Source of the DNA: Lepidostoma basale
Taxonomy: Eukaryota; Arthropoda; Insecta; Trichoptera; Lepidostomatidae
Length of the DNA: 64,000 nt
Assembly (NCBI GenBank): GCA_022606425.2
Contig: JAHDVF020001592.1
Coordinates: 62,001-126,000, forward strand
Direction of reading: 5' to 3'
Within the stretch, counting starts at the first letter, position 1, and every line of letters begins with the position of its first letter. Below, piece by piece: positions 9,501-62,032 of this stretch. Below the pieces are notes generated by a model that saw nothing but the letters and a program-made list of their open reading frames with translations, had not been told where the DNA came from and made no database searches. The translations under genes and the position numbers were made by a program.

Positions 9501-11906
9501 CGATTCCGGAATCTTCAATGTGGCGGTCATAGCTGTTGCCATTCTGGCACGAAGGTTTTACTTATTGCTCCCTTTTGTTTTTCAGAGACTCTGAGGATAT
9601 ATCCTCCGCTACCATTCTTATTCAGGTACTGCACCAAGGACTATCCTCACGTGCAGACCGCGACCACCATTGAAGTTGGGACTCTTGTGATGATCCCCAT
9701 AATAGGAATTCAGAGAGACCCTAGCATATACCCGGACCCCATAACTTTTAACCCAGAAAGATTTAATCCAGCTAATAAAATCGCCAGACATCCCTTTTCG
9801 TTCATACCATTTGGAGAAGGACCAAGGATATGTCTAGGTAATTTCACATACCTCATTTATATTATATAATGTATACAATAATATAAAGACTTAGAAAAAT
9901 GAAAATAACTTTGCTTAATCCACTAATTTAATAAAAAAATATTTAAAAAAACACGACATGTTTCGGAGGATACCTCCATCTTCAGGTGTAAAAATATAAT
10001 ACTCGTAAAAACTAAACAAAGAAAGACTAATATGAAAACGCATTTAAATTCGATACCGTAATTCAAATTTTAAAATTAGCCTGGGCTATTTATTATAAGT
10101 ACTAGTAAGAAAGAACTAATAAAGTAAGAATTAATAAATAATATTAAATAATAATGATACATGATGATAATATAAAAAAATATAAAAAGTTGAAATTTAG
10201 AAAAAATATATATTCGAAAAGGCAAAATTTATATAGAAATTAATAAATGCATAATTTCACAAGGCATTAATAAATTATGTCTAGTCAAGTATGTTTTTTC
10301 TAAATTACAATTTTTTATATTTTTTTAAATATTGTCATCATGTATTATTATTATTATTTAATATTATTTTTTAGTTCTTACTGATAAATAAATAATTATT
10401 AGTACTTAAAACAAATAGCCCAGCTTAATTTTAAAATTTGAATTATTGTAACGAATTTTATATGCGTTTTAATATTAGTCTTTCTTTGTTTAGTTTGTAT
10501 TATATGTTTATAGTTGAAAATTGAGGTATTCTCCGAAACATGTCGTGTTTTTTGATATTTTTTTATTATAATTAGTGGATTAAGAAATGTTATTTTCAAT
10601 TTCCTAAGAATATTACTATGGAATTCCAAAGTGTTAATGCCTTAGCGTTCAATAAGTTAATATAAAGACTTGTAAAAAGTAATGTGAAATTATTTATTGT
10701 TTCTTGAATTACGGTTTAAAGCTCATATTAGATATTGACGAAAACGTTTGTTTTGTTTTCTGGATATACTCGTATGTTACAGATTAATACGAATGAAAAC
10801 GTATTCTTTCTAATGTCAATCAAATTAATTTGATAATGGCTCACCTTGGTGAAACATGTCACGTCCATAAATTATTATAAAACCTCTAGAAAACGGATGT
10901 TTTCATTCGTATTAATTATTTAATATGAAATTTTACTATACTGTTCAAGAAAATATAAATATGTTTTGGAAATGAAATGTTTTGTTTTGCTAAGGCATCA
11001 TCAAAATATTACAATAGACGCATATTTATAAAAAAGAAAATAAAAAGAAAATATCAAACATGTTTCGGACTAAACAGCCCTTCATCAGTGATATTATATA
11101 AATATTTAAGATATATCTTTATTAAATTAATGATTTTTTTCAATGAGATAAGGGCCTTGAAATATTGCATGTTAATAATAGAAATATAACCTTGAACAGT
11201 CTCGAAATATTAGAAATTAAAAAAGCAATTTAAAATAAAGTAATATTTATAAATAATCAAATAAATTTAACGTCAAGTTATAAGGTAATACCTGAACGTC
11301 AATAAGAACTAATTATTATTAAAATATTAAATTTACTCATACCAAAAGCATAAACATTCCCAAATTAATCATTATAACATCTGTCAAAACTAACCATATT
11401 TGTAAATATTTTATAATATTTTAAATATTTTATAATATTTAAAATATGTATATAATGTCACAGATGAAGGACTAGTTAGTCCGAAACACGTTTGATATTT
11501 AATTTTTTATAAATTTGAGTTTTGTATACAAAGTATACAAAAATAAGCATATTTATAATATCAAATATGTTATACGCGTTAAAAATATGAAACAAACGCT
11601 GTATTCATATTAAATATTGAGGAATTCATATCAAATATAATTACGGCTCCTTCACTGTTATAATATATAATAATAAATAACCACATGTATGTGCTCGTGT
11701 ATATTATAATTTGTTATTAATATTGTGGTTGTTTTGCAGGTTTAAGGTTTGGTATGCAGCAAGTAAAGTTGGCTTTAGCGAGGATTCTGCTGGATTTCCG
11801 TGTTTCTTTGAGCGACAAGACAATTCAACATCCTAAATTTGAGCCAAATACAATGTTCCTTTGTACTAAAGATGGACTACACTTGGAGTTAACCCCGAGA
11901 AATTAG
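6594..11906 (+). CDS. Cytochrome P450, CYP6/CYP3-clan type, 4 exons
   Basis: This is a heme monooxygenase, expected in the ER membrane and fed by P450 reductase; insect CYP6-type enzymes commonly oxidise plant allelochemicals and insecticides. Exons by splice sites and phase: 6594-7452, 8281-8511, 9586-9837, 11740-11906. All three junctions are phase 1 with GT/AG, giving 502 residues, the usual length. An N-terminal anchor (about residues 1-25) and the proline-rich hinge SPPAKFPFG come first. Then W132xxxR136 (C helix), AGFET at 305-309 (I helix, oxygen activation), E364TLR367 (K helix), NPERFNP, and the heme loop FGEGPRICLG with Cys446. No stop or frameshift is seen, so it looks functional. 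The terminal exon resembles that at 1283-1464, so it is part of a tandem P450 cluster. The introns carry LINEs, family M, family X and three hammerhead families. The substrate cannot be predicted from this. A CYP6 subfamily name needs a database comparison. Confidence 0.93.
7460..7725. repeat. Fold-back family M copy in P450 intron 1
   Basis: The copy starts AAAGATTAATTGTATCTC and has the inverted GTCTCTATTGAG end plus the outer block with GGGTAAAATCCAGTATTTG. It has diverged arms and a different middle (GGTTTTATCGAAAAATC). It lies just inside the intron after the donor at 7453. Confidence 0.65.
7730..8025 (-). mobile_element. LINE C-terminal fragment (type K)
   Basis: The minus strand reads EMKTLRNISGKTLRDRIR, then VRWGRQIRKYW, HVRRMD and GRRRPTTKEMDRQLG, with a frameshift near 7750. 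The same block recurs at about 36985-37400, 49740-50060 and 63145-63550. It is the tail of a LINE ORF2 different from the main RTE-like family. Confidence 0.7.
8030..8262 (-). mobile_element. RTE-like LINE 3' fragment
   Basis: Minus-strand remnants of the C-terminal block (RACITRFMNVEE-type reading, NKLINI region) lie between CCAAAGGGG and CTCTATTTCTTG. The copy is strongly decayed and lies in P450 intron 1, ending about 20 bases before the exon 2 acceptor. Confidence 0.65.
8523..9276 (+). mobile_element. Jk2 LINE 3' end interrupted by element X
   Basis: The Jk2 3' end runs 8523-8720, is split by a 504-base insertion, and resumes at 9225-9276 with ATGAAATAAACTGATTTGATT and its (TGATT)n tail. 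The target sequence TCTGTTGATG is duplicated at 8711-8720 and 9225-9234. Removing the insert and one copy restores a normal Jk2 end. Confidence 0.8.
8721..9224 (+). mobile_element. Element X: retroposon with RTE-type 3' end
   Basis: A 504-base unit with exact TSDs (TCTGTTGATG, 10 bp). The first 300 bases are non-coding and AT-rich, with a GTCCGGATCGTCCA landmark. A GC-richer block (GGTGGCGATGAGGTTCGC) follows. The last 60 bases are the end of the RTE-like LINE (CTTTCTGTCTACCC, GGGGAAACGGCGTGATGG) plus (TTAG)n. Other copies are at 48072-48522 (its own 9 bp TSD), 41890-42110 and 62950-63085. It has no ORF. It is probably mobilised in trans by the RTE-like LINE. Confidence 0.8.
9333..9470 (-). 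mobile_element. Jk2 LINE 3' end, opposite orientation
   Basis: The copy begins with (AATCA)n at 9333-9352, then CAGTTTATT and AAGGCATCTATTGAGAACAGG, and reaches the GAAACGCATAAGAGATGG region. It faces the Jk2 copy at 9225-9276 tail to tail, 57 bases apart, in P450 intron 2. Confidence 0.7.
9495..9557 (-). mobile_element. tRNA-SINE head fragment
   Basis: The minus strand carries a box-B-like GGAATCGATCC and the GCCAGAATGGCAAC region that match the heads of the SINEs at 16858-17090 and 55800-56012. Only about 60 bases remain. It is 30 bases upstream of the exon 3 acceptor of the P450. Confidence 0.5.
9890..10665. mobile_element. Fold-back hammerhead element, family A, in P450 intron 3
   Basis: This is a large inverted repeat. 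The left arm (about 9890-10140) and right arm (about 10375-10625) share the AATCCACTAATT, AACACGACATG, TTTCTTTGTT and AGTACTTA landmarks in opposite orientation. The outer right end has GAATTCCA and ATGCCTTAGCGTTCAA, as in the partial copy at 362-514. The left arm carries a complete hammerhead on the minus strand (9939-9997). The matching motif in the right arm, 10514-10560 on the plus strand, has a changed core (TTGAAAA). Confidence 0.75.
9939..9997 (-). ncRNA. Hammerhead ribozyme motif, family A
   Basis: On the minus strand: core CTGAAGA (9985-9979), a 5 bp stem II GGAGG/CCTCC with TAT loop, GAAA (9964-9961), stem III from the self-complementary CATG, and cleavage triplet GTC followed by GTGT. 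Stem I has two parts: ACAC pairs with GTGT next to the core, then after an internal loop ATATTT pairs with AAATAT. All invariant positions of CUGANGA and GAAA are present. Such a short stem III usually acts as a dimer. It is antisense to the P450. Confidence 0.8.
10740..10985. mobile_element. Fold-back hammerhead family B, degraded copy
   Basis: The outer segments (GAAAACGT...TCTAATGTCAATC; CTCTAGAAAACGGATG, TTTTCATTCGTATTAATT) match other B copies. A hammerhead-like motif at 10830-10865 (+) reads TTGATAA, a weak stem II, then GAAACATGTC. It lies in P450 intron 3. Confidence 0.6.
11030..11520. mobile_element. Fold-back hammerhead element, family C
   Basis: The left hammerhead on minus (11050-11095) and the mirrored right motif on plus (about 11455-11505) enclose about 360 bases of AT-rich sequence, including an AAGCATAAAC landmark shared with 19470-19740 and 32775-33010. 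The right copy has CAGATGA in place of CTGATGA (U4 to A). It lies in P450 intron 3. Confidence 0.7.
11050..11095 (-). ncRNA. Hammerhead ribozyme motif, family C
   Basis: On the minus strand: a 7 bp stem I AATATCA/TGATATT without mismatch, core CTGATGA, stem II GGGC/GTCC (one G-U) after a single A, GAAA, CATG palindrome as stem III, and cleavage triplet GTT. U at position 17 is allowed by the NUH rule, though it usually cleaves more slowly than C. This is the most fully paired stem I in the window. It is antisense to the P450. Confidence 0.75.
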
Positions 11907-11954
11907 ACTATGAAAAGAGCAAAATAAGTTAAATATATAATATCAAAATATTAT

Positions 11955-12260
11955 TATTATTGCGGATTCATTCAACAATGTTTCTTTTTTTAAACTTTGT
12001 ACACAACACTAACTTTATTAAAATTTTTAAAAACTTACATGTTTCGGACACAGAAGCCCTTCATCAAAATCATTTTATATCTTTCAAAACTGGCCACATT
12101 CATGAAACTTTGTTAAAAATATTTATATCGCTTATGCAGGGGCTTCTGCGTCCGAAACATGTTTGTTTTTTAATTTTTTAATTTTTTAAGATAAGATTGG
12201 TGTTGTATACAAAGTTAAAAAAAAGAAACATTGTTAAATGATTCCGCATAAATAAAATAC
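11955..12260. mobile_element. Fold-back element, family C variant
   Basis: Inverted arms of about 75 bases run from TTATTATTGCGGATTCATT to AATGATTCCGCATAAATAA. The inner ends carry hammerhead-like relics: minus 12040-12066 (TTGATGA, GGGC/GTCC, GAAACATG) and plus 12125-12165 (core lost, GTCCGAAACATGTTTG kept). It starts about 50 bases after the P450 stop codon. Confidence 0.65.
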
Positions 12261-12860
12261 ATTGTTCAATATCTTATTCTTACCATAGATCTTGTGATCT
12301 GTTCAGACATAATATCAATCTACAATAGTTTCAGTGGTGGAGACGTCCAACTTTTTAACCATTTCTTTAGTGGTCATCCTGATGACCACGGCCCTCAGGA
12401 GTCTCGTGCATTACGTTATATTCCAATTCTAGTTTTTATATCTTGAATGCGGTCTCACTTATTTTTCAATCAGCAGTGTAGGTCCAGCGTTATAATTGTG
12501 TAAAGATTATTTCAACAATAATAAAATGAAACGGGTTGTTTAGGTTTTATCGAAAAATCTAATAAAATGTTTTTATTTTTAAATTTATTAATATCCAACA
12601 AGTCTCTAAGTTCATTCTTAGATAAAAATACTCATCATATGTACCTTCACACAATTTCATTACATATAAAAAAGTATTTTTGATTTTTCATAAGTAATAA
12701 TCAATAATAATTTTTCAACCATAATATACGGTTGTTGGAAAGAATAACAAGGAAGAAAATATTTATAATAATATATACATAAGTGAAATAATATATAAAT
12801 AAATTATATACATATATTCTCTACGGGAGATTTACTTAATTTTTTGTAAGAAATCAAATT
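12261..12860. other. AT-rich intergenic sequence
   Basis: About 12330-12450 has a short, less AT-rich scrap with CATTTCTTTAGTGGTCATCC. At about 12530 a GAAACGGGTTGTTTAGG scrap echoes the family M copy at 7500. Nothing else was found. Confidence 0.4.
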
Positions 12861-14651: not shown

Positions 14652-17600
14652 TTAATTCGTTATTTTTGTCTTTGGCATACTAAAAAGCATTTTTCCTATG
14701 GGAGTATTGAGGATTCTCCCTTTTAAACTATTGTAATGGACCATGACTTCGACCAGATTATTTCCCATGAAGAAGTCGCTGGCTACAATGTTAGCCTTGC
14801 TCCACCAATTGTTGTTGACCCAAGTTGTGAGGTTTCTGTTCACGGCATCGGCGTTTTTTCTCAGGCTTCCTTCCGTATTGAGGAGGACGTCAAGGGTGGT
14901 GGGGGTGGTTTGGGCCATAGCAGACCAGAGCGGGGTTGCGGCGGGGTCGCTGGTTGTGTAAGGGTTCTCCATCACAGATTCAAGATAGTCCTTGAGGATG
15001 TAGGGATCATTTGTCTCGCCCCACATGTGCCTCACGTTTGGCCAGAGCCATTTGTTAACTGTAAAATAAAACAAAATATTTTTATGGTTGTTTAAGTAGT
15101 GATCAAAACAGTTTGTTAACTCAACAGACATTACAAACCAAGTTAAAAAGCATAAAAAATTGGAGAGTCATCTCCAGGCGTTGTCTATTAAATATAATAT
15201 AATTGCGTTGTTCACAGCATTAATAAAAGTTTTTTGCTTAATGCTTACACCTAATCTTAAAAGATGGCGCTAGTGTAGATTGAACTAAAATATGTGAAGT
15301 GTTTCTCAAGATAGCAGCATATATACTCGTACATCTTCCAAAAATAGTTGTCAGACGTGGTGGTCGTAAGGGAATGTTGTATTACATAAAGCGATCGTTT
15401 AACCCAACCAATGACAGGTCATAAGTCCTGTAAACGCCTCGACCACCATATTCAAGCATTAAGCTGAAAATCTTAATAGATGACGCTAGTGTAGAGTGAA
15501 CTTAAAAAAATGTAAAAATAAGCGTGGGATTGTAGCATATATACAAGTTCCAAAAATTTGTCAGACGTGGTGGTCATAAAAAGTGCGGAATGGGGAATGT
15601 TGTTAACATAAAGCGATCGCTCAACCCAACCAATGACAGGTCATAGTCCTGTAAGCGCCTCGGCCACCATATTCTGTTCCCAGAAAAACCAATTTACATA
15701 TTCGTCTCTATTGATATACAATTAATCCTTATAAAATAATAATTTATCCGCAATGGGTAAAATCCAGTATATGTCTACAAGAATTTGTATACATTCAAAA
15801 TGTTGTCTAACTGTAATAAATTAGAAATGATCAATTTATAAACTCACCATTAGTAATGGATCTCTCGGGGTATCCAATGATCAGTCTTCTTCCAGAGTTT
15901 AATATTTGTGAAATCGTCGGTCCGACGTTTGCCCTTCCCGTAGATGTATACCTCTGGAAGCTGAATATGTAGGGGGCGAACTCTTCCTGGAACACGTCCA
16001 GGAGTAGCTGATGCCTTTCAGCGATGACCTGGTTCGACTGGTAGAAGCCAACTGTCAGCTGATGGACATCGAGGATCACAATCTAAGAATTCCGAAAAGT
16101 TATTATTAGAGAAAGATCTTATAAAATCAAAACAGTTAATTTCTCTCAAAGATATTACAAACATTATAGTTTAAAACATCACGGTACTTAAACGGTTAAT
16201 CACGGAAAAGTTATTATACTTAACGCCAACCGGTTTCGCTTGTACCCAAGGTTCGATTCCCGGCGATGACAGTATGAAAATAACCAAAAATTCTTATGCT
16301 GTTTTTGGTATGGTAGAATTCACGTAACATAAAAATGGCGATGGACTAGCCACCTATCACATGTCATAAGGAAAGAGTGCCACTTGCAGTCATGCTATTT
16401 GCGGTCAGATCATTCAACGTTCCACTTGCGGTCAATCGATAATATTAAAAGAACTAATGTTTATAATTAAATTTAATAAAGAACTTAAATTTAAAAGAAC
16501 TTATGTTTATAATTAAATTTAATAAAGATCTTATGCCTAAATTAAAGTTAAGCGTTATTTTACATATACAAATGTAATACTTTCTGTTTTGGAATATAAA
16601 ATATATAATACTTACCCGCGAATCAGACGCAGTCTCTATCTGTTTCAAGTTGAATGACCAACCCATATATAAACCTAACAAACTTTGATGTAGGTACCAG
16701 AAGATGTCAGCAAGTTGTCGAAACCGGTAAAAACTAAATAATTAACTTTTCAAAGTATTAAATCCTAGGTATTGGTTTGCAGCAAAGTCAATTAACATCC
16801 TTGCTGGTTCTTGGGATGCCATTGGGTCATTTAATGTTGTAGTTTCCCCTTGCTTTCCACATTTTTGTATACCACAGGCTATTTAAATACAATTACTGTA
16901 TACAATTTTTAAGCTAATGATTCTCGTGACATGTGATAGGTTGCTAGTCTATCATAATTTTTATTATCACGTGATTTCTACCAGACCAAATACAATATGA
17001 GATATATTTTCACATTGTCATCGCCGGGAATCGAACCCGGGACCTTCGATGTGGCAGTCGTAGTTGTTGGCACTCTGCCACGATCACTTTTGTTTACCCT
17101 ACACGGTTATATTGTGGGGTCATAATATGACGTCATAATACGTATTACGTATGAAGCAAGAATCGTATAAAATTAATATTTGGTTTGCACGAAGAAATTT
17201 AACTTTACATTTAAATAGAAGATTTGTTACCTCATCGGTTGTAGACTCCAGGAACCTTCGGATATCTCTCAACAGAGGAAGAAGAGGGGTGACCTTGATT
17301 GACCCGTGGTTTAGCCATAACCTAAAAATTATTATAAGCAAATCAATTTAGATTTTGAAGGGCAGAATGCGTTCTTCCAGTACTGACATTTGGAGCAGAA
17401 ACGCTAGCCCTCACCAAGTCAACAGGTTCTGGTCAGACAGAAGAGTTTCTTTACTCTCCTCATTCCTGTCTAATTCTTTATATTCAGAAGCCAGGCCTTC
17501 TGCCTTCTACCAACTCCCCGCCGTCACTCTATCTTGTCCATTATTATTATTGTTATTATTATTATTATTTTGTTGAATCGCTCTTAACATCATGATAGTA

Positions 17601-20600
17601 TGAGCCAAATCGATGTAAAGGGTATTATTATAGCTATCATAGTGATTCTCGTGACATGTAATAGGCAGCTAATCTATCGCCATTTTATTGTCACGTGAAT
17701 TATACACCAGACCAAAGACAGTGTGACAATCGCACTGCCCTCGCCGGGAATCCAACCAGGAACCTTTGGGGTGGCAGTCAATGCACTTACCACTCGGCCA
17801 CGAAGGTCGAAGCCGAAGGAGGTGTTATTTTTCTCCCTTTAGCATATGACCCAAATATGATACCATTCTAAACTTCATATTCGACAATAGCCTCTATAAG
17901 TTCTGGCTCTCTGTAGTACGTCTGCTTTACTGACTTAATCGGTCCACGGTATTCGAAACATTCTGCGGTGTATTCATCTTAAACTTCTACAACCGGTTCA
18001 TTACATTCACATTCAGAGTCCAAGTTTCACAGTCATATAGTAGAACAGACCATATACTCGTATAGCATAAATATTATTAGTCGGATTTTCATGTTAAGAT
18101 TATCGTAGCAAAATAAGGTTCTCATTTCATTAAATGCAGCACGTGCAACTTCAGCTCTGCATTTTATTTCAATATCTGAGTCGAAGGCTTTATTTATTTA
18201 TCAAATGCAGGGTTAGTTTCAGATTAAAACCACGTTATATATACTCATAAAATAAATGGCGCACTCAAAGTCATTACTGCAAATAGAAATATATCCACAG
18301 AAGCAAAGATGGCAGTACACAATGGAGTTCTAGTGCCAACCCTCATATATGGAAGTGAAGCTTGGAGCTGGCAAAATAAGGATGAAAGCAGGATAAACTC
18401 TGTAGAAATGAGATCACTAAGAAGAATGTGCGGAAAACGTTGTACGATAGAATACCGAACGACAAAAAAAGAAAGAAATGTAAGGCAGATGACTGCATCA
18501 TGAATAAATTTAAAAAAGGATCCCTGAGATGGTTTGGACATATGGAACGAATGGATGAGAGTAGAATGGTTAAAAAGTTGTTCACAAGCAGCGTCAGTAA
18601 GAAAAGAAGCCGAGGACGACCGAGGAAAACATGGCATGACCAAATTAATCAATTACTAAAAGGCGGCCACATTCGAAGTCGGAATAATCGACGTGCGTGC
18701 ATGGTACGATGTATGAATGTAGAGGAATCCCGAGAGGTATGCCAGGACAGGCCATTGTGGCGATCCATACTCTCTGCCTTCCCCTCCGGGGAAATGGCGT
18801 GATGGTTAGTTAGTTAGTTATTTTTTTTGTGTTGTATAATAGAAATGGCGCTTTAAAATCATACATTTTCGAAAAATCTTTTGTTTTTGTAGTAAACGCA
18901 AGAAGATTGCATTGAATAGCGATGTACTTACGTGTCGGAACCCTCAACTCTAAGAAACAGACTCCTAAATGTATCGTAGTATGCGATTCTGAAGTCCATG
19001 TATCTAATGCCAGAGACGAGCTGGGTCCATATGTCCCTGTCTTGGCAGAGGACGTATCTCTCCAGGACACTTCTCAGACTCCCAAACCCGTAGGATCCAG
19101 CGTCGTGCGTCCCGGGGATGAGTAGTTTAGAAATAGGGATATCAGCGATGTCATCTCTGGAATAGAAAAAAATGTTTTTAACATATAAAAAATGTTGGCC
19201 ATTATGATTCAATGGAACGTTCTCACTCTTGAAAAACGAATATATTGACTTTTTATGATTAAAATAGATTAAATATAATAACACAGAGTAGTGGTCAACA
19301 ATTAATTTATTTCAAAGAGATTTTACGAATAAAATAAGACTCATGAAATCAGTTTTGGACCATAGGGTCAAGAACACAAGTATGTTAGAGTTCCAAAGTT
19401 AAGAAGGCAAAATTTAAAGTGTTTGCATACTTGTTTTAATGTTACAACTAATGTTTTGAAATAAATCAAAGATTGGACTTGACGTTAAATTTATTTGATT
19501 ATTTATAAATTAAAATAATTGATAATATTTGTTATAACAAAAGCATAAACGTTACAAAATAAATCTTTATAACTTCTGTCAAAACTAATCATATTTGTAA
19601 ATAATTTTATCATTTTTTAAATATGTATCTTTATAATATGTATCACTGAAGAAGGACCGGTTGTCCGAAACATGTCTTATATGTTATTTTATTTTTTAAA
19701 ATTTAATGTTGTATATATAATACAAAGTATATAAAAAAGACAAATAAAACATGTACAACGTAAAATATGGCGAACACGGAAGAAATTTTTAAAATAATTG
19801 GTAATTCTTCATTTCACTAGGTCTTCCTTGATTTATGGCTTCATTTATATCATTAACGCATTCTTTCTTCATTCATTAATATAAGACTCACGTCTGAATG
19901 AAGATAATAAAAAAAGAGTACTTACAAATGTTGAATCCCCAGATTTCCATTAATTCCAATTTTGCCATACAAAGCGATAGTAAATAAATACAATTATTTA
20001 TTCTATGAAAATTTGTAGGTAATGATTTTGATCAGGATTAAAACTTTGGTGAGATTGAAACAAACAAAATTTGCAGCTGTAAAATAAATCAAAACCTACT
20101 TGATATCTGACATCCAGGTTGGATGATACTTCAAACAATTGGTCTTCAGTAACTTGTCGTCCCTGTAGCTAGCAATCCAGAACGGATGACATTGCGCTCC
20201 GGATGTAAGCAGCTTCTTCTTGTTTTTTCTTTTAGTCTGGAACATATAGGTATGGACACTGTTAAAAGATATGTTAGTAAGGTGTACTCGAAGAAGAGCT
20301 CGACCAAGAATCCTACGAACACCGAACGTATCTCGAGAGCGAGAGACCCATTACGAGCCTGAGCAGGCGTATCTCATATTTTCATCTCATTTGATTAGGA
20401 AAAACTGTAAAGCAGGTCTTAAGTATTAGATATTTGTTTAAAAAAACTTACATTCCTGCTCCATTCGGATAGATTGAGTGGTCCCAGGGATACTCCAGTG
20501 ACGTGATAGTTCCAGATGTGGTCTGCTACATTCACGATCTCAAGTGGCTGCGCATTGGGTGTCTCTGGATCCACATTGAACAATGCTACCTAGAAGATAA

Positions 20601-23600
20601 TATTTCAATTATATGTGTATGTCATTTATTTATATATGAGCTGTATCTAGACACACATTCGTATAGGTTTAATGACATTTTTAGTGTCAGTGAGGCAGTG
20701 TTCATAAAAGAAAGGCAGCACTTTATTGACGTTGACATATTTGGGATCCTTCTGAGATGTTATCTCTTAGTTTCATATCGATATTATATTTTTGTTTACC
20801 GATTCGTGTCCAAATTAGTCACCCATTTGTATTTCGTTTGTTATGTCTAATTTGTGTATAAGAAAAAATAAATAAAGTATATTCTACCGCATTATTTAGG
20901 TGTAACCATATAAAATATTAGGTATTGATGAAAAAGTTCGTCACTCCAATGTTATAAAACTTCTAGAAAACAGACGTTTTCATCAAAAGCTTACATTTTA
21001 AAGAAGATTTGTTATATAATATGGAAGAGAGAAGTTTGGGAAATAATGTAGGACAGTGTATATACATTTTAAAAGATTTAAATATTTTTATGGGATTGAT
21101 ATGTTTCGCCTATTCGACATTTGATAATGCTAGTAGAAAGGCAACATGTGTTATCCCAATAAAATATGACAAAGCCAGATTGAAAAGACAAAGACAGGAC
21201 AAAGATGGATGAGAAGAGAAGTGGAATTGAGACCACGTGAAATTAATAGAAGAAGGAGAAGGAGACCCCCACACAATGGTCGGATTATTTAAGGAAAATT
21301 GTTGGTGACTGGATGCAGATAGTGCAATATAGAAGTGTGTGGAGAAGTATGAGGGAGGCGTTTGTTCAATAGTGGTTGACATCAGCTCTATAATAAATAA
21401 AACCTCAATATAAGAATACAATGATATATAATAATAATAATATACTTGGGAAGTTGAAAATAACTTTGTTTAATCCACTCATTATTAAACAAATATTAAA
21501 AAAACACGACATGTTTCGGAGGATACCTCCATCTTCAGATGTAAAAATATAATAAAAAGTAAACAAAAAAGACTAATATTATATGAAAACTCATTTAAAA
21601 TTCGATACAATAATTCGAATTTAAGATTATAGTTTTTATATTAGTCTTTCTTTGTTTAATTTTTATTATATGCCGAAATATGTCGTGTTTAAAATTTAAA
21701 AAAAATAATTAGTGGATTAAACAAAGTTATTTTCTAGGGATTAATTGTATCTCAATAGAGACGAAGATGTAAATTATTTGGAAACCGAATATGGTAGTCG
21801 AGGCGTTTACAGGACTTATGACCTGTCATTGGTTGGGTTAAAAATGATTAACCCACAATGGGTAAAAATCCAGTATTTGTCTATAGTATTTTTATAAAAA
21901 AAAAACAAAAGTTATTTTCATTTTCCTAAATATATTACTATGCAATTCCACAGTGTTAATGCCTTAACGTTCAATAAGTTAATATAATAATACATATTAG
22001 AACATATTAGTGCATAATATCATAAATCTCTGGAAAAAATACCTTGTTCGGGATTTCAGATTCTGCAACTCCCGAGCATTTTGTGATATCCCAGTTGAGT
22101 TCTAGCTTATCATCTACATACGGGTCTTTCTTCCATACATTTGTTTCTAGTGATGACACTGACAAATATATGAACCCGCAATCTGTTGGAGATGAATCTG
22201 TAATAAAAATATGCTTAATTAATTTCAGGATTTGGTTACCAGCAGTAACACCTTTAAGAAGGTGTAAAAAGTGCCCGATGAATATTGTTCTGGCTGATCT
22301 GGCTAAACTGGGCGAAAGGGATTGCTGGGAGTAAAAGGCGCAGAATCAAGAAGCTTAAAATGATACCATCAAAGAGGGTAAATCTCTTCAAGAGTTGTAC
22401 GGCAATCTGCAGTAAGGATTATTATAAATAACTTCAACCAATATATTTAAATATTTAATATAGGGTGTTTTTTTTTAAGGTATACAATACATATCCAAAA
22501 TGAAAAAAAAAAACAAATTAAAATATTGTTAACGTCTATGATATTGCCTTTATTTAAAAGATAATTTTATGCCATTATTGTTTAAATATGATTTCGGGCA
22601 TAAGAGCGCCACGGCTAGCTCGAATGAAGCGTATGATTATGTCGACCGTAAAATGTACGTAGTGCACGATAAGTTTCGCGAATCGAATTTTTTTCAAAAT
22701 TTGCAAGCGCTGTTCTAACGTCATTCTATTTATGGTAAAATGGCAAAACCTACTAATTACAAATCAACTATCAACTGTCAAATTGACAGTCTGTAGAAAC
22801 AATGTTGCCAGTTTAAAAACCAAACTTAAAAAAAAAACACCCTATACAAATGACAACGTTTTTTTCCTGCAAGTTTTATTATAATTTATGTGAATGAAAT
22901 GATTCGATAGTCTTAAACAATACCTTAGAAAGGCGAAACATGTCATTTCCATAAATTATTTCTTCTTCTAGAAAACAGACGTTGCTTATCGTATTAACTA
23001 TCTAATTTGTTGTTTTACATCATTGTTTAAGAAACAATAAATATTGAAATAGTTAATACGGATGAAAATGTCGGTTTTCTAGAAGTTTTATTATATTTTA
23101 TGTAAATGACAAGTTTCGCCTGTCTAAGGCATTATCAAACGTGACATTTGATAATGCCTTGGACATGTGAAACATGTCATTCCCATTAAACATAATAAAA
23201 CATATAGAAAACAGACGTACGGAAGTGAAGCTTGGAGCTGGCAAAAGAAGGATGAAAGCAGGATAAACGCCGTAGAAATGAGATCACTAAGAAGAATGTG
23301 CGGGCAAACGTTGTATGATAGAATACCGAACGATGAAATAAGAAAGAAATGTAAGGCAGATGACTGCATCACGGATAAAATTAAAAAAGGATCCCTGAGA
23401 TGATTTGGACATATGGAACGAATGGATGAGAGTAGAATGGTTAAAAAGTTGTACACAAGCAGCGTGAGTGGGAAAATAAAGCCGAGGACGACCGAGGAAA
23501 ACATGGCATGACCAAATGAATCAATTACTAAAAGGCAGTCACACTCGAAGTCGGAATAATCGACGTGCGTGCATGGTACGATGTATGAATGTAGAGGAAG

Positions 23601-29600: not shown

Positions 29601-31549
29601 GCTGGAAAGTGTGCCTCTACAAAATGTCGTAAGGCGCCATGTTGCATTTACAACAGCAACACTACTATCAAGTCCAACTCTCTAGCTTCCATGAGAGGCC
29701 TTTTAAAGACCCCGCGAACCCGGGCAATGTTGCACATATTACTTAGTGCCGAATGAGAGGACGAATGGCGAGCTTCCAGCGCCATAAAACTGGATACACC
29801 CAGCTAAGGGAAGGTAACCCCGACAGAAAATTCTCCAGAGAAGGCAAGGGGATACCACTCTGGATATTTTTCCCCAGGTCATTACTTAAAGGTGATAGTC
29901 AACGTTAGGGAGACCTGACAGAAGAAGTTACTGAAGAAGAAGTTACTGCCCTTATGACGCTTGGGTCCAAGCGAAACTAGTTGGCATCAATTAACATAAC
30001 TCTACCGTGGTTAAATATAAAGTGTTTTATTATTTTATATCTATAAGTTAATTAAAAAAAAAGTTTAATCCTTATATTCGTAAATGGCAGAATTATGGAA
30101 TTTCCAATTATTTGCAAAAAGTTAATCAAAATTATTATTAAACATTATATAAAGAGTCCTTCATTCACTGTTATATTACTTTTTTTATATTTCTATCTAT
30201 TGTATTTTTCTGATCAGTTATCATTTTTATATCTTCTATTGCAAAATCACTACGTGACTGGACGTTAAGTTTATAAATAAACAAGATGCATAATTGTAAA
30301 CACGATTATTTAGTGGCTTGGATTTAATTTATATAAATTTTATTATTGTTACAAATTTGTTTCGCCTTGCTATGGTATTCTCAAACTGGTCCGTTGGAGA
30401 ATGCCCTCGCAAGGCGAAACAAATTTGTCACAATTTATATAATTTATATAAATTAAATCCAAGTAAAACCAATAAACAATCGTGTTTACTTTTATAAATT
30501 AATAATACAAAATTAATACTTAAACCATCAATAAACAAGGTGCTTCAATTTGTATATATGCATTGTATTATTCTTTCGATTTCAAATACAAATCTTTTTA
30601 TGTTTATAATTAAAGGATAACAAAAATAAGCTCAGTAACATTAAACGAATATTTGGATAATTAATAGAGATTTTTTTTCACAATACGCTCTCCACATATT
30701 ACATATTTCGGATGGCACTCATCCTTCTTCAGAGTACAAATTTTGATATTAAAATAATAATATGGAAATGTGAAAATACATTTTTTCTAGTTATTCCCAC
30801 TACAAAAAGTAAACTTATAAAAAGTAAGCCCTTAGATGTTTTGCATATTCTATTTTACCTATACCTTCATCATCAGGTGAACGATATAAACGACTTATAC
30901 AGTTCTTCTGATATAAGGTATGAAGTCTTCGAAACGCGCATAGGAAAATAAATTCAAAAGAGAAAAAATAACTCATTTTAATTTATGAAAAAAAAAAATA
31001 TATATATATATATATATATTATAATAATAATTAGAATTCCGCATATTTAATCACTCAAGTTTAAAAAAAAAGACTTTGATTTTTTTATCACAATTGTATT
31101 TTATTTTACGCGACAGCTGTTTCATCAACCTATGTTGACATCATCAGGTGTTACAATAATAAATCAAATGTCATTTTTTGAATCTTTATGTGTATTTTTT
31201 CCTATGTCAATTTGAATATACGAGTATATTTTATTTTTGACATTTGATATATTATTGTAACACCTGATGATGTCAACATAGGTTGATGAAATAGCTGTCG
31301 CGTAAAATAAAATACAATTATCATACAAAAAACAAAGTTATTTAATTTAATAGTTTAAAAATGTTAAGGTATCATAGTGTTTCGGCCAAAACAATGGACT
31401 ATTTATAAAAAAAATCAAATTAAGAGTTTCACATTGAAATGATTTAAGCTAAAAAATAAAAATAAAATGAACTTACTGATTTTTGATTTGGAGTCGCATA
31501 ATCCGATCACTAAGATAAATGCACACAGATATAACAGTTTTGGCACCAT
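14652..31549 (-). CDS. Secreted PI-PLC X-domain protein, 8 exons
   Basis: Exons in transcript order: 31549-31477, 22197-22043, 20589-20452, 20236-20100, 19156-18932, 17321-17231, 16082-15848, 15058-14652. All have GT/AG sites and matching phases, giving 486 residues. Residues 1-18 are a signal peptide (MVPKLLYLCAFILVIGLC). Exons 2-4 encode an N-terminal beta-rich region with CGFIYLSVSSL and TNCLKYHPTWMSDI. The X domain starts in exon 5 with IPGTHDAGSY (His185) and IRYMDFRI (Asp222, Arg224), and continues with LWLNHG (His248) in exon 6 and IVILDVH in exon 7. The two histidines match the general base/acid pair of PI-PLC X domains. There is no Y, C2 or EF-hand domain, as in PLCXD and bacterial-like enzymes. 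The substrate is expected to be phosphatidylinositol or a GPI-like lipid, but several insect members are uncharacterised. No stop or frameshift is seen. Intron 1 is about 9.3 kb and holds LINEs, SINEs, a DNA transposon and hammerhead elements. Confidence 0.93.
15236..15800. repeat. Two family M fold-back pieces in PI-PLC intron 7
   Basis: The first piece (15236-15450) is a half element with AGATGGCGCTAGTG, GTGGTGGTCGTAAGG and GCGATCG. The second (about 15456-15800) repeats the same order with AGATGACGCTAGTG and ends with GTCTCTATTGATATAC and the outer GGGTAAAATCCAGTAT. They are in tandem and lie 40 bases from the exon 7 donor. Confidence 0.7.
16225..16400 (+). mobile_element. tRNA-derived SINE, head damaged
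   Basis: Box B GGTTCGATTCC is at about 16250-16260, followed by the SINE body (CGGCGATGACAGTATG, AGAATTCACGTAAC, GGCGATGGACTAG, CACATGTCATAAGG). The normal box A region has been replaced by CCGGTTTCGCTTGTACCC. It lies in PI-PLC intron 6. Confidence 0.65.
16690..16740 (+). ncRNA. Hammerhead-like motif, family F' (altered core)
   Basis: The plus strand reads CAGAAGA (U4 to A), an imperfect stem II GTCAGC/GTTGTC, GAAA, the CCGG palindrome and GTA. Two other F' copies (about 32040-32095 and 32260-32300, minus) share the A at position 4, so the change is a family trait. It is likely inactive or slow. Confidence 0.45.
16745..16857. other. Unclassified scrap
   Basis: The stretch 16770-16860 (TTTGCAGCAAAGTCAATTA and following) is richer in GC than its surroundings and has a short open reading in the plus frame. 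I do not recognise it. Confidence 0.25.
16858..17092 (-). mobile_element. tRNA-derived SINE S1, full length
   Basis: On the minus strand: a tRNA-like head with box A near GTGGCAGAGTGCC and box B GGTTCGATTCC at about 17030-17040, a body with ATAATAAAAATTATGATAGA and CACATGTCACGAGAATCA, and a 3' end with ATTGTATACAGTAATTG and GGTATACAAAAA. It lies in PI-PLC intron 6. Confidence 0.75.
17535..17818 (-). mobile_element. tRNA-derived SINE S2 with (AAT)n tail
   Basis: On the minus strand the head has box A CGTGGCCGAGTGG and a mutated box B (GGTTGGATTCC). The body matches S1, but the 3' end is different: TTTACATCGATTTGGCTCA, GAGCGATTCAACAAAATAATAATAA, then an (AAT)n tail at 17537-17570. The intact partner copy is at 28549-28802. 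Confidence 0.75.
17860..18235 (-). mobile_element. LINE ORF2 fragment, decayed
   Basis: Minus-strand readings such as KCRAEVARAAFNEMRTLFC and MKIRLIIFMLYEYMVCS fit the post-RT region of LINEs (chain LKIRLLKCYVWS...). Frames are broken. It lies in PI-PLC intron 5. Confidence 0.55.
18243..18822 (+). mobile_element. RTE-like LINE, 3' 580 bases with (TTAG)n tail
   Basis: The copy opens with NGALKVITANRNISTEAKM, then AVHNGVLVPTLIYGSEAWSWQ, SLRRMC, SLRWFGHMERM, RGRPRKTWHDQI, ACMVRCMNVEESREV and SILSAFPSGE, in two frames that change near 18430. The tail TTAGTTAGTTAGTTA is at about 18806-18820. It is 5'-truncated, with an intact 3' end, in PI-PLC intron 5, antisense to that gene. Confidence 0.85.
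19470..19740 (+). mobile_element. Hammerhead element, family C, single arm
   Basis: It shares GACGTTAAATTTATTTGATT, AAGCATAAACGTTAC and TCTGTCAAAACTAA with the family C element at 11030-11520, in the same order. Only one hammerhead (19637-19685) is present. The outer end ATATAATACAAAGTATATAAAA resembles the other C copies. It lies in PI-PLC intron 4. Confidence 0.65.
19637..19685 (+). ncRNA. Hammerhead ribozyme motif, family C
   Basis: Core CTGAAGA at 19646-19652, stem II GGAC/GTCC (54-57 with 63-66), GAAA 67-70, CATG palindrome, and cleavage triplet GTC ending at 19676. Stem I pairs ATGTATcA with TtATATGT, with one C/T mismatch and two G-U pairs. All core positions are canonical. It is antisense to the PI-PLC transcript. 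Confidence 0.75.
20920..21178. repeat. Hammerhead family B relics
   Basis: Two scraps: 20925-21000 (GTTATAAAACTTCTAGAAAACAGACG) and 21095-21170 (ATGTTTCGCC...GACATTTGATAATGC...GGCAACATGTG), the latter a hinge of a B palindrome. Both have lost their outer ends. They lie in PI-PLC intron 2. Confidence 0.55.
21180..21405 (+). mobile_element. LINE C-terminal fragment (GEAYVQQW-type)
   Basis: The plus strand has a damaged reading RRRRRRPPHNGRI then KIVGDWMQIVQYRSVWRSM, REAFVQQWLTSAL and a stop. This is the end of ORF2 in LINEs whose last residues are usually EAYVQQW. The 5' part is missing. It lies in PI-PLC intron 2. Confidence 0.6.
21425..21990. mobile_element. Hammerhead element, family A, with a family M insert
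   Basis: Family A arms run from 21445 (ACTTGGGAAGTTGAAAATAAC) to 21734 and from 21908 to 21990 (CTAAATATATTACTATGC, CTTAACGTTCAATAAG). The duplicated 12-mer AAAGTTATTTTC at 21723-21734 and 21908-21919 brackets a 173-base family M insert (21735-21907). The left hammerhead (21493-21550, minus) is complete; the right one at about 21640-21690 has lost core and stem II. Confidence 0.8.
21493..21550 (-). ncRNA. Hammerhead ribozyme motif, family A
   Basis: The minus strand has CTGAAGA (21538-21532), stem II GGAGG/CCTCC, GAAA, CATG and GTC. Stem I is ACAT with GTGT (one G-U), then AATAT with ATATT across an internal loop. It is almost identical to the copy at 9939-9997. It lies in PI-PLC intron 2 in the sense direction, so the pre-mRNA would contain it. 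Confidence 0.75.
22240..22430 (+). mobile_element. LINE C-terminal fragment (type P)
   Basis: The plus frame has MNIVLADLAKLGERDCWE, then a KGAESRSL-like decayed part and SLQELYGNLQ. It matches the complete 3' end at 61410-61955 (DNVLVDLARLGKSDCWEQKAQDR, TLQELYG). It abuts PI-PLC exon 2 at 22197. Confidence 0.7.
22461..22844. mobile_element. Mariner-like MITE
   Basis: Terminal inverted repeats read TAGGGTGTTTTTTTTTAAG at 22461 and TTAAAAAAAAAACACCCTA ending 22844, with TA at both ends as the TSD. The internal landmarks GCCTTTATTTAAAAGATAATTTTATGCC and AAAATGGCAAAACCTAC recur at 52425-52760 and 53588-54560. The latter keeps a transposase-like N-terminal segment. It lies in PI-PLC intron 1. 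Confidence 0.75.
22860..23216. mobile_element. Hammerhead family B, two overlapping fold-back pieces
   Basis: Piece one (22860-23040) runs from AAGTTTTATTATAATTTATG through GGCGAAACATGTC to the ATCATTGTTTAAGAAACAATAAAT end. Piece two (23045-23216) has the full hinge: TTTCGCCTGTCTAAGGCATTATCAAA facing TTTGATAATGCCTTGG, then GAAACATGTC. The core reads TTGATAA. Confidence 0.7.
23217..23636 (+). mobile_element. RTE-like LINE fragment fused to family B
   Basis: The LINE sequence starts abruptly inside family B (ACAGACGTACGGAAGTG) with YGSEAWSWQKKDES, RSLRRMC, KGSLR then a stop and shifts, ending at GACAGAGCATTG. No (TTAG)n tail remains; family B sequence resumes at about 23640. B flanks on both sides suggest that the LINE piece lies within a larger B element. 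Confidence 0.7.
23640..23925. mobile_element. Hammerhead family B fold-back copy
   Basis: Arms: TGAAAATGTCTGTTTTCTAGAAG at 23749 and TTTTCTAGAAAACAAACG ending 23908. The hinge is CCTGTCTTAGGCATTATCAAATGTGAC / CATGTGATAATGCTTTAGACAGGCGAAACATTTC. Both cores are damaged (GTGATAA; TAAA for GAAA), but the stem I half-sites ATGTGA and TCACAT are still complementary. Confidence 0.65.
24335..24405 (-). mobile_element. SINE S1, 3' part only
   Basis: Minus strand: AATATAATAGCTAAAAACAG, then GGGTTCAAACAACCGG and TTGTATACAAAAAA. It is the tail shared with the Jockey-type LINE at 34946-36420. It abuts a Jk2 (AATCA)n run at 24400. Confidence 0.65.
24398..26540 (-). mobile_element. Jk2 LINE 3' end split by a DNA transposon
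   Basis: The Jk2 3' end (ATCAAATCAAATCAAATC, CTATTGAGAACAGG) runs 24398-24491 and resumes at 26470-26540 (TATATGTAGTATAATTCCAG, ATTAGAGATGGTTCG). The interruption is the element at 24492-26469, with TATATG on both sides. Confidence 0.7.
24492..26469 (-). mobile_element. Unclassified DNA transposon, about 2.0 kb, decayed
   Basis: Perfect 16-base inverted ends TTAGGGTGTCCCTTAT (24492-24507) and its reverse complement (26454-26469) are flanked by TATATG (24486-24491 and 26470-26475). Minus-strand coding remnants include HQARWMARAIYSLKIRL, DVCLFILSVYVKPWLEC and a KARIHTRAVCNYVKKLVDL region, with an LFDTAHADAL stretch. Frames are shifted several times. I remember similar proteins as uncharacterised multi-copy insect ORFs but cannot name the superfamily. 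Confidence 0.7.
26541..26744. other. Intron sequence, nothing recognised
   Basis: AT-rich stretch in PI-PLC intron 1 without a recognisable element. Confidence 0.35.
26745..26930 (-). mobile_element. SINE S1 without its tRNA head
   Basis: It has the body CACGTGACAATAAAATGGCG and CATGTCATGAGAATCAATA plus the 3' end, where the TTTAAACCCAATTA unit is present three times (about 26753-26805). The tRNA-like head stops at ACTCTGTCGTTGG. It abuts fold-back element F. Confidence 0.65.
26936..27062. mobile_element. Fold-back element, family F
   Basis: Near-perfect inverted arms (26936-26990 and 27006-27062) span AAAACGATG, CTTTTGTCTTTATTTCGACAG and their complements. The 15-base hinge holds CCGGTTTCGCCAGGC, i.e. 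GCCTGGCGAAACCGG on the minus strand: the 3' half of a hammerhead with CCGG stem III and GTC. The CUGANGA half is missing here; a related copy at 32585-32690 keeps it in mutated form. Confidence 0.6.
27063..27170 (+). mobile_element. Hammerhead family B, right half
   Basis: TTGATAA, stem II GCCTT/AAGGC (5 bp), GAAA, ATAT in place of CATG, then ATC followed by ATTCCCATAAATT, and the outer TTTCTAGAATACAG. Stem II is the best paired of all B copies here. Confidence 0.6.
27592..28434 (+). mobile_element. RTE-like LINE, 3' 840 bases, decayed
   Basis: The remnant starts after the palm (ELKGLDVG) with a mutated active-site stretch (LYADNAVLFADNEHE). It goes through MTVCNISVNGE, VYLGSMLTRDGRVERDIERRVGA and SLRWFGHMERMNEE to the CCCCTTCGGGAAGATGGTGTG end at about 28430. 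No TTAG repeat remains, and there are several frameshifts. It lies in PI-PLC intron 1, antisense. Confidence 0.8.
28549..28802 (+). mobile_element. tRNA-derived SINE S2, full length
   Basis: The head GACCTTCGTGGTCGAGTGG (box A-like) at 28549 and box B GGTTCGATTCC at about 28602-28612 are spaced as in a tRNA gene. The body has TGTCACACTGTCGTTAG and CACGTGACATTAAAATGGCG. The 3' end is TTTACATCGATTTGACTCA, GAGCGACTCAACAAAAT and (AAT)n to 28801. Internal RNA polymerase III promoter boxes plus a LINE-like tail define a SINE. Confidence 0.85.
29435..29990 (+). mobile_element. RTE scrap plus unclassified GC-richer repeat
   Basis: Bases 29435-29565 are decayed RTE-like sequence (VQNGVLT, YGSEV, ESRINAIIMS). 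Bases 29566-29990 are clearly less AT-rich (GACCCCGCGAACCCGGGC and following) with no open frame. They could be part of another retroelement UTR, ending in GAAGAAGTTACTGAAGAAGAAG. No second copy was found in the window. Confidence 0.4.
30298..30490. mobile_element. Fold-back hammerhead-like element, family D
   Basis: The inverted arms AACACGATTATTTAGTGG... / ...CCAATAAACAATCGTGTTT meet at a hinge with two opposed motifs. Each has GAAA, the 8-base palindrome CAAATTTG as stem III and GTC or GTA. The cores read TTGAGAA (minus) and TGGAGAA (plus). It lies in PI-PLC intron 1. Confidence 0.6.
30690..30960. mobile_element. Hammerhead element, family G
   Basis: A canonical-core motif at 30697-30745 (minus) is followed at 30850-30940 by two looser motifs: CTGATGA on minus near 30870-30864, and CTGATATAAGG...CTTCGAAACGCGC on plus at 30909-30940. 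A degraded relative of the first motif is at 53345-53395. Confidence 0.5.
30697..30745 (-). ncRNA. Hammerhead ribozyme motif, family G
   Basis: The minus strand has CTGAAGA (30732-30726), stem II GGATG/CATCC (5 bp, loop AGTGC), GAAA, then TATGTA where other families have CATGTC. Stem I is weak (ATG/TAT with G-U pairs). The core is canonical; the changed stem III makes activity doubtful. It is in the sense direction of PI-PLC intron 1. Confidence 0.55.
30999..31018. repeat. (TA)n microsatellite
   Basis: About ten TA units within an AT-rich stretch beside the family E element. Confidence 0.8.
31093..31157 (-). ncRNA. Hammerhead ribozyme motif, family E, minus copy
   Basis: CTGATGA (31147-31141), a 6 bp stem II GTCAAC/GGTTGAT-type, GAAA, the CAGCTG palindrome as stem III and cleavage triplet GTC. 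Stem I: ACAC against GCGT (three of four pairs), a one-sided loop of A-rich bases, then ATTGTA with TACAAT. The layout equals family A (short inner helix, loop, 6 bp outer helix), though the sequence differs. It is in the sense direction of PI-PLC. Confidence 0.8.
31254..31318 (+). ncRNA. Hammerhead ribozyme motif, family E, plus copy
   Basis: This is the mirror copy of 31093-31157: ATTGTA, ACAC, CTGATGA at 31264-31270, GTCAAC/GTTGAT stem II, GAAA at 31288-31291, TAGCTG stem III (one base changed from CAGCTG), and GTC ending at 31299, then GCGT and TACAAT at 31313-31318. Confidence 0.78.
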
Positions 31550-38999: not shown

Positions 39000-39375
39000 A
39001 ATATCTAATATGAAAAAAACGTCTGATCTATAAGTTTCATTATATTTTAGGGGAATGACATGTTTCGTCTCATTATGTCATTATCAAATATAATTTAACT
39101 AACTGAATAACTGACTATCACACCGTTTTCCCGTGGGCGACATTCAATATTTCATTTATTTGATCCTGCCACGTTTTCCTCGGTCTGTTTTCTAAAAGTT
39201 TTATTATATTTTATGGGATAGACATGATTCACCTCGTTGAGGTATTATTTCGTAGTTCGATAATGCAAGCAAGACGAAATATGTCATTTGCATAAAATAA
39301 AATATATTTTTTAGAAAACATACGTTTGAATTCGTATTAAATATTCAATATGTAATTTTACATCATTAAAAAGGA
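39000..39375. mobile_element. Hammerhead family B with an RTE scrap inside
   Basis: Left B part 39000-39095 (minus-strand motif TTGATAATGA...GACGAAACATGTC). An RTE 3' scrap lies at 39105-39188 (CTGACTATCACACCG to CCTCGGTCTG, minus). Right B part 39189-39375 with TTCGATAATGC...GACGAAATATGTC on plus. Confidence 0.6.
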
Positions 39376-46246: not shown

Positions 46247-46427
46247 TATTAATTTATGAATAAACATTACCAGGACGTACAGAACAAAATCGAACATTTT
46301 ATTTGGACTAACTAAATGTGAATTATCGGGTGATATTATAAAACACTGCTCTAATAAACCATATGTTGCCTAAGTAAAACATTTTTTTTATGATTTAAAA
46401 CTATTTTTTTTCCACTTTTTAGATTAT

Positions 46428-46475
46428 TTTTCTCGACATGTTTCGAGGCTTTACATCTTCATCATCGGGAGTAAC
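46428..46475 (-). ncRNA. Hammerhead-like motif with altered U4
   Basis: The minus strand has CCGATGA (U4 to C), an imperfect stem II GAAG/CCTC, GAAA, the CATG palindrome and GTC, with CTC/GAG beginning stem I. One core base differs from consensus. Confidence 0.45.
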
Positions 46476-46828
46476 CAAAATGATTATAATCTTAATACAA
46501 GAACCTCGGAACACAGGACGTTGTCCTGCCCGAACGTTGGATTCCCTGCTATTTGTTGGTCTAGCAAACGTTTTTTCCATATTCGTATTTTCGATAAACT
46601 ACGAGTTTATACTCAATACGCAAGCAATTGTGAGACATGCCATATATGGAATATTGAAACACAGCGAACATAATTTTAAATCTACGCCACGCTACAACGT
46701 AATTTACGTTAAAAGTGATTTGCAGTACTTAAACAAAGAGTTCGACATCAGTGCCATCTATGGTAAACAAACACAACTGTGAATTATTCTCAGTAGGTCA
46801 ATTATTCATGAACTTCCCAGAAAGTTTT

Positions 46829-52414: not shown

Positions 52415-52424
52415 ATAAAATTAT

Positions 52425-60445: not shown

Positions 60446-60449
60446 GTTT

Positions 60450-60612
60450 AAATCATTTCGAATGAAAACACCTGTCCGCAAGTTTTATTATAATTATGAC
60501 ATGTTTCGCCTCGCTATGACATTTTCAAATGTTTGATAATGTCAAAGTAAAGGCGAAACATGTCATTTCCATTAAATATAATACAACTAATATAAAACAG
60601 ACGTTTCCCTAT
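60450..60612. mobile_element. Hammerhead family B fold-back copy
   Basis: Arms AATGAAAACACCTGTC/CATATAAAACAGACG. Hinge motifs: TTGAAAATGTCATAGCGAGGCGAAACATGTC on minus and TTGATAATGTC...AAGGCGAAACATGTC on plus. Both keep GAAACATGTC, and both have U at position 3 and A at position 8. Confidence 0.7.
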
Positions 60613-61405: not shown

Positions 61406-61407
61406 GG

Positions 61408-61955: not shown

Positions 61956-61980
61956 ATAATATTTATAACAATTTATTTTT

Positions 61981-62032
61981 ATGTCGCGACAGCTGTTTGC
62001 CAACCGATGTTGGCATCATCAGGTGTTACAAT
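61981..62032 (-). ncRNA. Hammerhead relic, family E
   Basis: The minus strand has CTGATGA, a 7 bp stem II GCCAAC/GTTGGC plus flanks, then CAAACAGCTGTC: one base of GAAA is missing. Stem III CAGCTG and GTC with GCG are intact. Stem II is more stable than in the complete copies at 31093 and 31254, but the core deletion should abolish cleavage. Confidence 0.6.

Follow-up and report, generated by a model that had tools for sequence, protein, structure and literature searches.

Minimal type I hammerhead ribozymes are found in the pseudo-long terminal repeats (pLTRs) of Penelope-like elements (PLEs), or as thousands of dispersed copies, in many metazoan genomes (PMC7761336). In insects, hammerheads are known from cave-cricket satellite DNA (PMC2837043), and retrozyme-like repeats have also been described (PMC7229834). 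Here we analyzed a 64-kb window (the whole stretch studied, positions 62,001 to 126,000 of contig JAHDVF020001592.1) from the 769-Mb genome of the caddisfly Lepidostoma basale, in which fold-back elements carry hammerhead-type motifs. We estimate a probability of about 0.85 that these motifs are of PLE origin, namely minimal type I hammerheads from the pLTRs of several endonuclease (EN)-containing lineages. Actual cleavage by the motifs is, in our judgment, somewhat better supported than its opposite.

The motif is of the same kind as the PLE minimal type I hammerheads, which have little or no stem III and are thought to act as dimers (PMC7761336, PMC6155905). By comparison with secondary descriptions of those hammerheads, the motifs here differ in an extra A or U after A9 and, in some lineages, in a U3-A8 pair. 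In Adineta vaga Penelope, inverted head-to-head pLTRs are a common arrangement, with palindromic junctions and an optional tail into the first codons of the open reading frame (ORF), and the same features were seen here (PMC3846280). However, Penelope copy number in A. vaga is described as particularly low, whereas motif counts in L. basale reached tens of thousands; the A. vaga paper mentions ribozymes 0 times (PMC3846280). The Poseidon element PAc of Anolis, also EN-containing, likewise has a hammerhead at the pLTR-ORF junction, with its tail at the internal start of the reverse transcriptase (RT); its cut site lies 26 bp inside the ORF, while that of a tandem copy of our family J is predicted 75 nt upstream of the ATG (PMC11167929). 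Each of the main features has been published already (hammerheads in PLEs, pLTRs in inverted arrangement, a base inserted at position 10, and the U3-A8 pair), and the elements are PLE pLTR-like and form no new class. Among titles and abstracts listed in searches of open-licence literature, a scope that does not extend to Cervera 2014 and Lunse 2017, neither the extra base nor U3-A8 was found for PLE hammerheads.

Hammerhead-type motifs and their stems

The window was scanned with a strict descriptor (CUGANGA, at most one extra base, a stem II of 4 bp or more, GAA, an A...U-closed stem III of at least 2 pairs, and a non-G at position 17). Eight places were returned, identical to the eight sites at which a first-pass annotation, made from the sequence alone, had reported a full core, a stem II that pairs and a stem III palindrome. 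When 100 dinucleotide-shuffled windows were scanned in the same way, 83 gave no match and 17 gave one. A looser pattern, CTGANGAN{4,34}GAAA, matched the window 14 times against 4.5 expected, and across the genome CTGANGA...GAAACATGTC gave 14,095 matches against 1 for the pattern read backwards. A covariance model (R1) was built from 19 sequences, nine of which are window sites and therefore match it by construction. It returned 32 matches in the window at E ≤ 1 (22 at E < 0.01, the other 10 from there to E = 1) and 164 at E ≤ 0.5 over 39 sources (304,627 bases, leaving out the overlapping loci L004 and L033), many of which had been chosen for holding the motif. These numbers show that the annotated tally of eight intact sites and about fifteen further relics was correct. 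The annotated stem III palindromes were also real. The named sites have CAUG and CAGCUG, 30350(-) and 30416(+) have CAAAUUUG, and CCGG occurs in fetched loci and, by eye, at about 32020-32300 of the window. One more palindrome, ACUAGU, was absent from that list. As an observation, the first-pass annotation was confirmed.

The type I core (C3U4G5A6N7G8A9...G12A13A14, A15.1-U16.1, H17) was present at all eight named sites; deviant cores occurred in families F and G (U3-A8) and E (U4C). Stem III varied among ACAUGU, ACAGCUGU, ACCGGU, ACUAGU and ACAAAUUUGU, and remained palindromic. In 17 representatives (about 13 types, some of them related), 80 of 85 stem II pairs were formed against a shuffled mean of 46.3, 52 of 68 in stem I against 31.3, and 50 of 51 in stem III against 43.0; none of 2000 permutations was as high for any stem. 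Positions 3 and 8 were paired in 16 of the 17 against a mean of 14.4, a weak result (44/2000 as high). Considering also that the copies share descent, we do not claim C3-G8 covariation as a set of independent events. In the first alignment of 19 sequences, 89.9% of the cells paired, compared with 66.9% after shuffling and 27.9-47.8% with the partner slid. Among 12 representatives compared pairwise, 44 of 66 pairs gave no alignment at all, and 10 aligned in register across the motif (A, B, B' and C mutually; D-G; F-F). The first annotation of a hammerhead-like structure with covarying stems and a weak palindromic stem III was supported. The claim that stem II covaries held; the added claim that this was "rather than shared descent" was too strong, since A/B/B'/C align with one another and D aligns with G.

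Dimer action has been reviewed for newt and PLE hammerheads (PMC6155905, PMC7761336), and it would fit the present motifs because stem III is self-complementary and has no loop. In 10 of 10 motifs, paired copies folded to a lower energy together than apart, a comparison in which trivial pairing is included. Monomer folding was discarded as evidence: stem II appeared in most of 10 minimum-free-energy folds, with the canonical junction missing.

The sites and elements of the window are listed below; bits are R1 scores, and inverted repeats come from self-comparison unless given as by eye.

9873..10624, family A fold-back element of two inverted pLTR-like copies (self-inverted repeat 79% over 771 columns)
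9944..9993 (-), hammerhead motif A, 59.4 bits (ACAC-CUGAAGA-U-GGAGG/CCUCC-GAA-ACAUGU-C-GUGU)
10506..10555 (+), A motif relic in the other arm of the family A fold-back, 26.0 bits
10618 (+), ORF-start tail MEFQSVNALAFNK at one end of the family A fold-back (tail comparison)
10822..10871 (+), F-type relic, 23.3 bits
11042..11507, family C fold-back element (self-inverted repeat 62%)
11046..11096 (-), hammerhead motif C with stem I AAUAUCA/UGAUAUU (7 bp), 52.6 bits
11453..11503 (+), C motif relic in the other arm, 38.1 bits
12025..12075 (-), D-like motif with core UUGAUGA, 44.7 bits (an R1 training sequence)
12123..12174 (+), D-like relic in the other arm of the fold-back 11911-12305, 21.5 bits, E 0.011 (inverted repeat)
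19638..19687 (+), hammerhead motif B', 53.7 bits; no inverted partner found by self-comparison
21497..21546 (-), hammerhead motif A, 57.6 bits
23097..23146 (-), F-type motif with core UUGAUAA, U3-A8, 29.0 bits
23140..23189 (+), F-type motif head-to-head with the preceding one, 28.0 bits
23829..23878 (+), F-type relic with inverted partner 23786-23835(-), 23.1 and 19.8 bits
27079..27127 (+), F-type motif, 27.6 bits
29943..29993 (+), K-type relic with stem III ACUAGU and stem I UGCC/GGCA, 21.6 bits, E 0.01
30350..30429, inverted pair with stem III ACAAAUUUGU and degenerate U3-A8-like cores; plus arm 18.3 bits, E 0.08
30689..30740 (-), hammerhead motif I with stem II GGAUG/CAUCC and a stem I of one pair, 38.2 bits
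31091..31319, family H fold-back element (by eye from the sequence)
31101..31155 (-), hammerhead motif H with stem III ACAGCUGU, 42.5 bits
31256..31310 (+), hammerhead motif H in the other arm, 40.4 bits
32828..32878 (-), hammerhead motif C, 48.1 bits
37580..37629 (+), F-type motif in the fold-back 37458-37672, 34.6 bits (inverted repeat)
39046..39095 (-), F-type relic in the fold-back 38936-39412, 29.0 bits (inverted repeat)
46424..46476 (-), E-type motif with core CCGAUGA (U4C), 31.3 bits (self-comparison)
60487..60575, F-type head-to-head pair, 60487-60536(-) and 60525-60575(+), 27.6 and 27.5 bits
61977..62030 (-), H2-type relic, 25.9 bits

A further fold-back family, GACCGGTTTCGG...CTTCTGG, was noticed by eye at 32020-32090 and 32255-32300 of the window and at 5510-5560 of L026; read on the other strand, again by eye, its layout matches except that A stands in place of U4 (CAGAAGA-U-stem-GAAACCGGUC).

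Linkage to Penelope-like elements

The clue came from family D, for which the fold-back of locus L016 (2451-4013) consisted of two inverted coding tails with a GIY-YIG domain, each followed by a motif. In a genome search with the L016 GIY-YIG protein, 150 of 9,580 candidates were scored and about 40 had 97-100% identity over most of the length of that protein; such near-identical coding copies suggest recent PLE activity. Locus L041 had an open frame of 862 codons with RVT_1 at 360-552 and GIY-YIG at 726-777 (22.9 bits against a cut-off of 22.6), that is, a single ORF with RT and a C-terminal GIY-YIG, and a family D motif 116 nt 3' of the frame. In L042, an 873-codon frame was followed by a J motif (ACCGGU); this locus was 59% related over the endonuclease, and its GIY-YIG match, at 19.3 bits, was under the Pfam cut-off. 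The PLE assignment was made from the domain order and from homologues, with named protein relatives in beetles (Diabrotica, Aquatica) and a dragonfly.

Twenty stretches were fetched from the 150 listed endonuclease copies, and 16 had a sense-strand motif at E < 1e-3 beside the endonuclease; one more had E 0.024. By reading of the sequences, the 16 motifs were of seven types (B, B', C-like, D, G, J and K, the last in L059, downstream of the endonuclease), with 11 intact CUGANGA cores, one U3-A8 core (L049) and four cores with one letter changed. In L068, two PLE units stood in direct tandem with the motif between them, and 75 nt separated the motif from the ATG of the second unit, whose frame has a stop. 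Short copies of B, A, E and F ended about 20-40 nt inside the ORF start, after which the flanks differed; the tails read MANIEE, MEFHSVNALAFNK and a related E start, and MEFYIIVQETIN. The elements thus showed the hammerhead, the tail into the ORF start and the inverted or tandem copies that are traits of pLTRs.

The Penelope connection raised in the first-pass annotation was therefore borne out by motifs 3' of RT/GIY-YIG frames and by tails at ORF starts. Its contrast between inverted repeats here and direct ones elsewhere was not supported, because inverted pLTRs are normal in published PLE anatomy (PMC3846280) and a direct tandem occurred in L068; for PLEs the inverted arrangement is expected, not unusual. 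The copies look like fold-back elements because many are short pLTR pieces, often two of them head to head. The proposed non-autonomous population was half the picture, as coding copies also exist, many of them 97-100% identical over the endonuclease, together with open frames of 862 and 873 codons. Taken as a whole, the interpretation was partly supported.

By reading, the 5' end of L041 lay within 7 nt before the predicted cut, that of L064 about 7-8 nt after it and that of L066 about 40 nt after it, and the 5' ends of L063 and L065 were solely inverted sequence. With so few copies, a cleavage footprint in genomic 5' ends is not claimed. At 801-850 of L041, by eye, the inverted pLTR arms met inside the hammerhead with an 8-nt spacer beside the stem III palindrome. 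Snap-back priming might leave such a junction. A bolder corollary of the tentative rebuilt-core proposal described below is that the stem III palindrome could double as the place where reverse transcription primes by snap-back, from which inverted copies would arise.

The window also holds one P450-like and two RT (RVT_1) frames. The P450-like frame, at 6591-7949(+) (Pfam p450), had a similar-looking counterpart by eye in L011 at 6051-6935(+), perhaps part of a tandem P450 cluster. Sub-threshold tRNA-model matches (24-27 bits) at 17016-17087(-), 17736-17807(-) and 28551-28622(+) are perhaps tRNA-derived short interspersed elements. Two long near-perfect hairpins at 52338-52415 and 26939-27049 scored far below threshold with microRNA models and are perhaps other fold-back repeats.

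The extra base after A9 and the U3-A8 pair

At all eight named sites, a single additional base separated A9 from stem II, a feature overlooked in the first-pass annotation. In a local set of 69 non-identical motifs (core [C/U]UGAN[G/A]A, stem II of 4 bp or more, palindromic stem III), exactly one extra base was present in 68, with counts of 38 for A, 29 for U, 1 for C and 0 for G. Base 17 of these 68 was C in 58, U in 7, A in 2 and G in 1. Stem II therefore did not start directly after A9 (10.1-11.1) as in the canonical layout, a deviation known to be tolerated; a scan with the canonical layout lacking the extra base recovered just 1 of the 8 sites and was rejected. The plus-strand hammerhead of chrysanthemum chlorotic mottle viroid (CChMVd) likewise has an extra base, A10, between A9 and stem II; at this position A is tolerated at a moderate cost, U increases the rate 3-4 fold, and C and G are harmful (PMC3705267). 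The local motifs obey this rule, with A or U in 67 of 68, although CChMVd is a viroid and the motifs here belong to a retroelement.

Genome counts for NTGANNA...GAAACATGTC, with about 100 places listed per search, were 20,049 for U3-A8 (backwards control 9), 14,095 for C3-G8 (1), 1,512 for U3-G8 (5) and 1,114 for C3-A8 (2). Judged by stem II, the mixed-pair places listed mostly looked like single-letter decay of C-G or U-A families, and about a quarter of the U3-G8 places listed were another short repeat without stem II. Genome-wide, the short repeat TTGAGGAAGCGAGAGAAACATGTC, which contains GAAACATGTC and no stem II, was frequent. U3-A8 was found in F (extra U; most of the places listed) and in G (extra A; another stem II), and a degenerate form of it occurs in the ACAAAUUUGU pair. 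G aligns with D (70% identity from -52 to +147 around the motif), so the 3-8 pair would have changed within a single lineage, along with stem II. A G-type motif with one stem III letter changed lay 3' of a PLE endonuclease copy in L049 (66% identity, two stops).

C3 and G8 pair in the active fold, covariation to U3-A8 is reported in "several" natural hammerheads, and such variants have been shown to be active in vitro (PMC3088659). The U3-A8 pair in L. basale stands out by its scale; the copies share descent, and it may therefore represent one or two events. Family F was rejected as a certain ribozyme because its stem I is about 2 bp, and it may well be inactive. A PLE hammerhead radiation with a rebuilt core, in which A or U is obligatory at position 10 and U3-A8 is used in some lineages (F, G and, separately, the ACAAAUUUGU pair), is a tentative proposal that we regard as rather unlikely.

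Proposed mechanism and alternative explanations

In the mechanism we propose, a PLE unit would run from pLTR through the ORF (RT and GIY-YIG) to a stop and the hammerhead, followed by the start of the next pLTR and ORF. In a tandem transcript, two motifs would pair through their palindromic stem III, act as dimers and cut between units. Cutting would be co-transcriptional and would release RNAs of unit length in which a short 5' leader precedes the ATG; for family J, the resulting RNA would begin 75 nt upstream of the ATG. Inverted copies are probably products of PLE activity rather than self-cutting units. In 5 of 5 folded fold-back transcripts, 46-55 of the 50-55 motif bases paired with the antisense arm, and with the motif buried in such a predicted hairpin these copies are probably by-products and not working ribozymes.

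Besides this burial, several results weigh against the favored reading. The extra base displaces the pair directly after A9. A lack of covariance-model matches above threshold had been named in the first-pass annotation as refuting it, and with the Rfam models this criterion formally went against it: over the window and two loci with intact motifs, the hammerhead models gave 0 matches at the gathering score and no hammerhead at E ≤ 10, likely owing to the extra base and the short stems. Pairs changed on both sides numbered 9 in the 19-sequence alignment, against 7.7 after shuffling (99/500 as high). The permutation shuffles ignore kinship among the representatives, and 8 of the 17 (H2, J1-J3, K1, K2, L and G) were picked from model or pattern matches, which favors paired stems. 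Stem I is 2 bp in family F, weak in I and H and, next to the core, in D; family E carries U4C. Four of the 20 endonuclease flanks had no clear motif (three none, one at E 0.024), and one core letter was altered in L045, L046, L047 and L052. None of families A, E, F, H and I was traced to a coding PLE; for A, E and F the only link to PLEs is the tail, and for H and I it is the motif. The 5' ends of full-length copies were not all at the predicted cut, and in Anolis PAc, ribozyme mutants left in vitro insertion unchanged (PMC11167929).

Several of these points fit motifs that are hammerhead-derived and catalytically dead, kept as an RNA or DNA hairpin bound by a PLE protein. The extra base in 68 of 69 local motifs, U4C in family E, the insertion of PAc without ribozyme activity, and family F, to which most of the roughly 100 places listed among 20,049 U3-A8 matches belong despite a stem I of 2 bp, are all compatible with loss of catalysis. 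However, the catalytic letters, a non-G at 17 and the 3-8 pairing were mostly retained while the stems changed, and the near-confinement of the extra base to A or U mirrors the cleavage data for CChMVd (PMC3705267). We consider a dead motif possible and the less favored outcome.

Far less probable are explanations outside PLEs. Metazoan retrozymes, small non-LTR elements with type I hammerheads that spread independently, are defined by direct repeats of 150-350 bp bounded by hammerheads and by circular RNA. The type I motif, the non-coding copies, the dimer-type stem III and three F motifs in direct tandem exactly 269 bp apart (G000:C1:1464007, 1464276 and 1464545, minus strand) resemble this design, but most local motifs lie within inverted repeats and several types directly behind a PLE ORF, making independent retrozymes improbable. 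Least probable of all, and very nearly dismissed, are miniature inverted-repeat transposable elements (MITEs) of ordinary DNA transposons with terminal hairpins that resemble hammerheads by chance. Their inverted-repeat shape, lack of coding sequence and high copy number match, while the ORF-start tails on one side only and a common motif in representatives of which 44 of 66 pairs cannot be aligned and 10 align in register do not; direct linkage to RT/GIY-YIG frames contradicts a MITE for B, B', C-like, D, G, J and K. The element ends are asymmetric, with a tail on one side, and in the few viewed by eye, nothing convincing was seen as a target-site duplication. An origin of the motifs in PLE pLTRs remains the favored explanation.

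As Rfam models missed the motifs in the window and in two loci, Rfam-based counts of hammerheads may be too low. What PLE hammerheads do is still called a mystery (PMC7761336). A genome with many divergent families and near-identical coding copies allows catalysis, dimers and core changes to be compared in one host, and the core features merit a bench test. If active, the motifs with a rebuilt core would be a natural series for testing the evolution of the hammerhead core.

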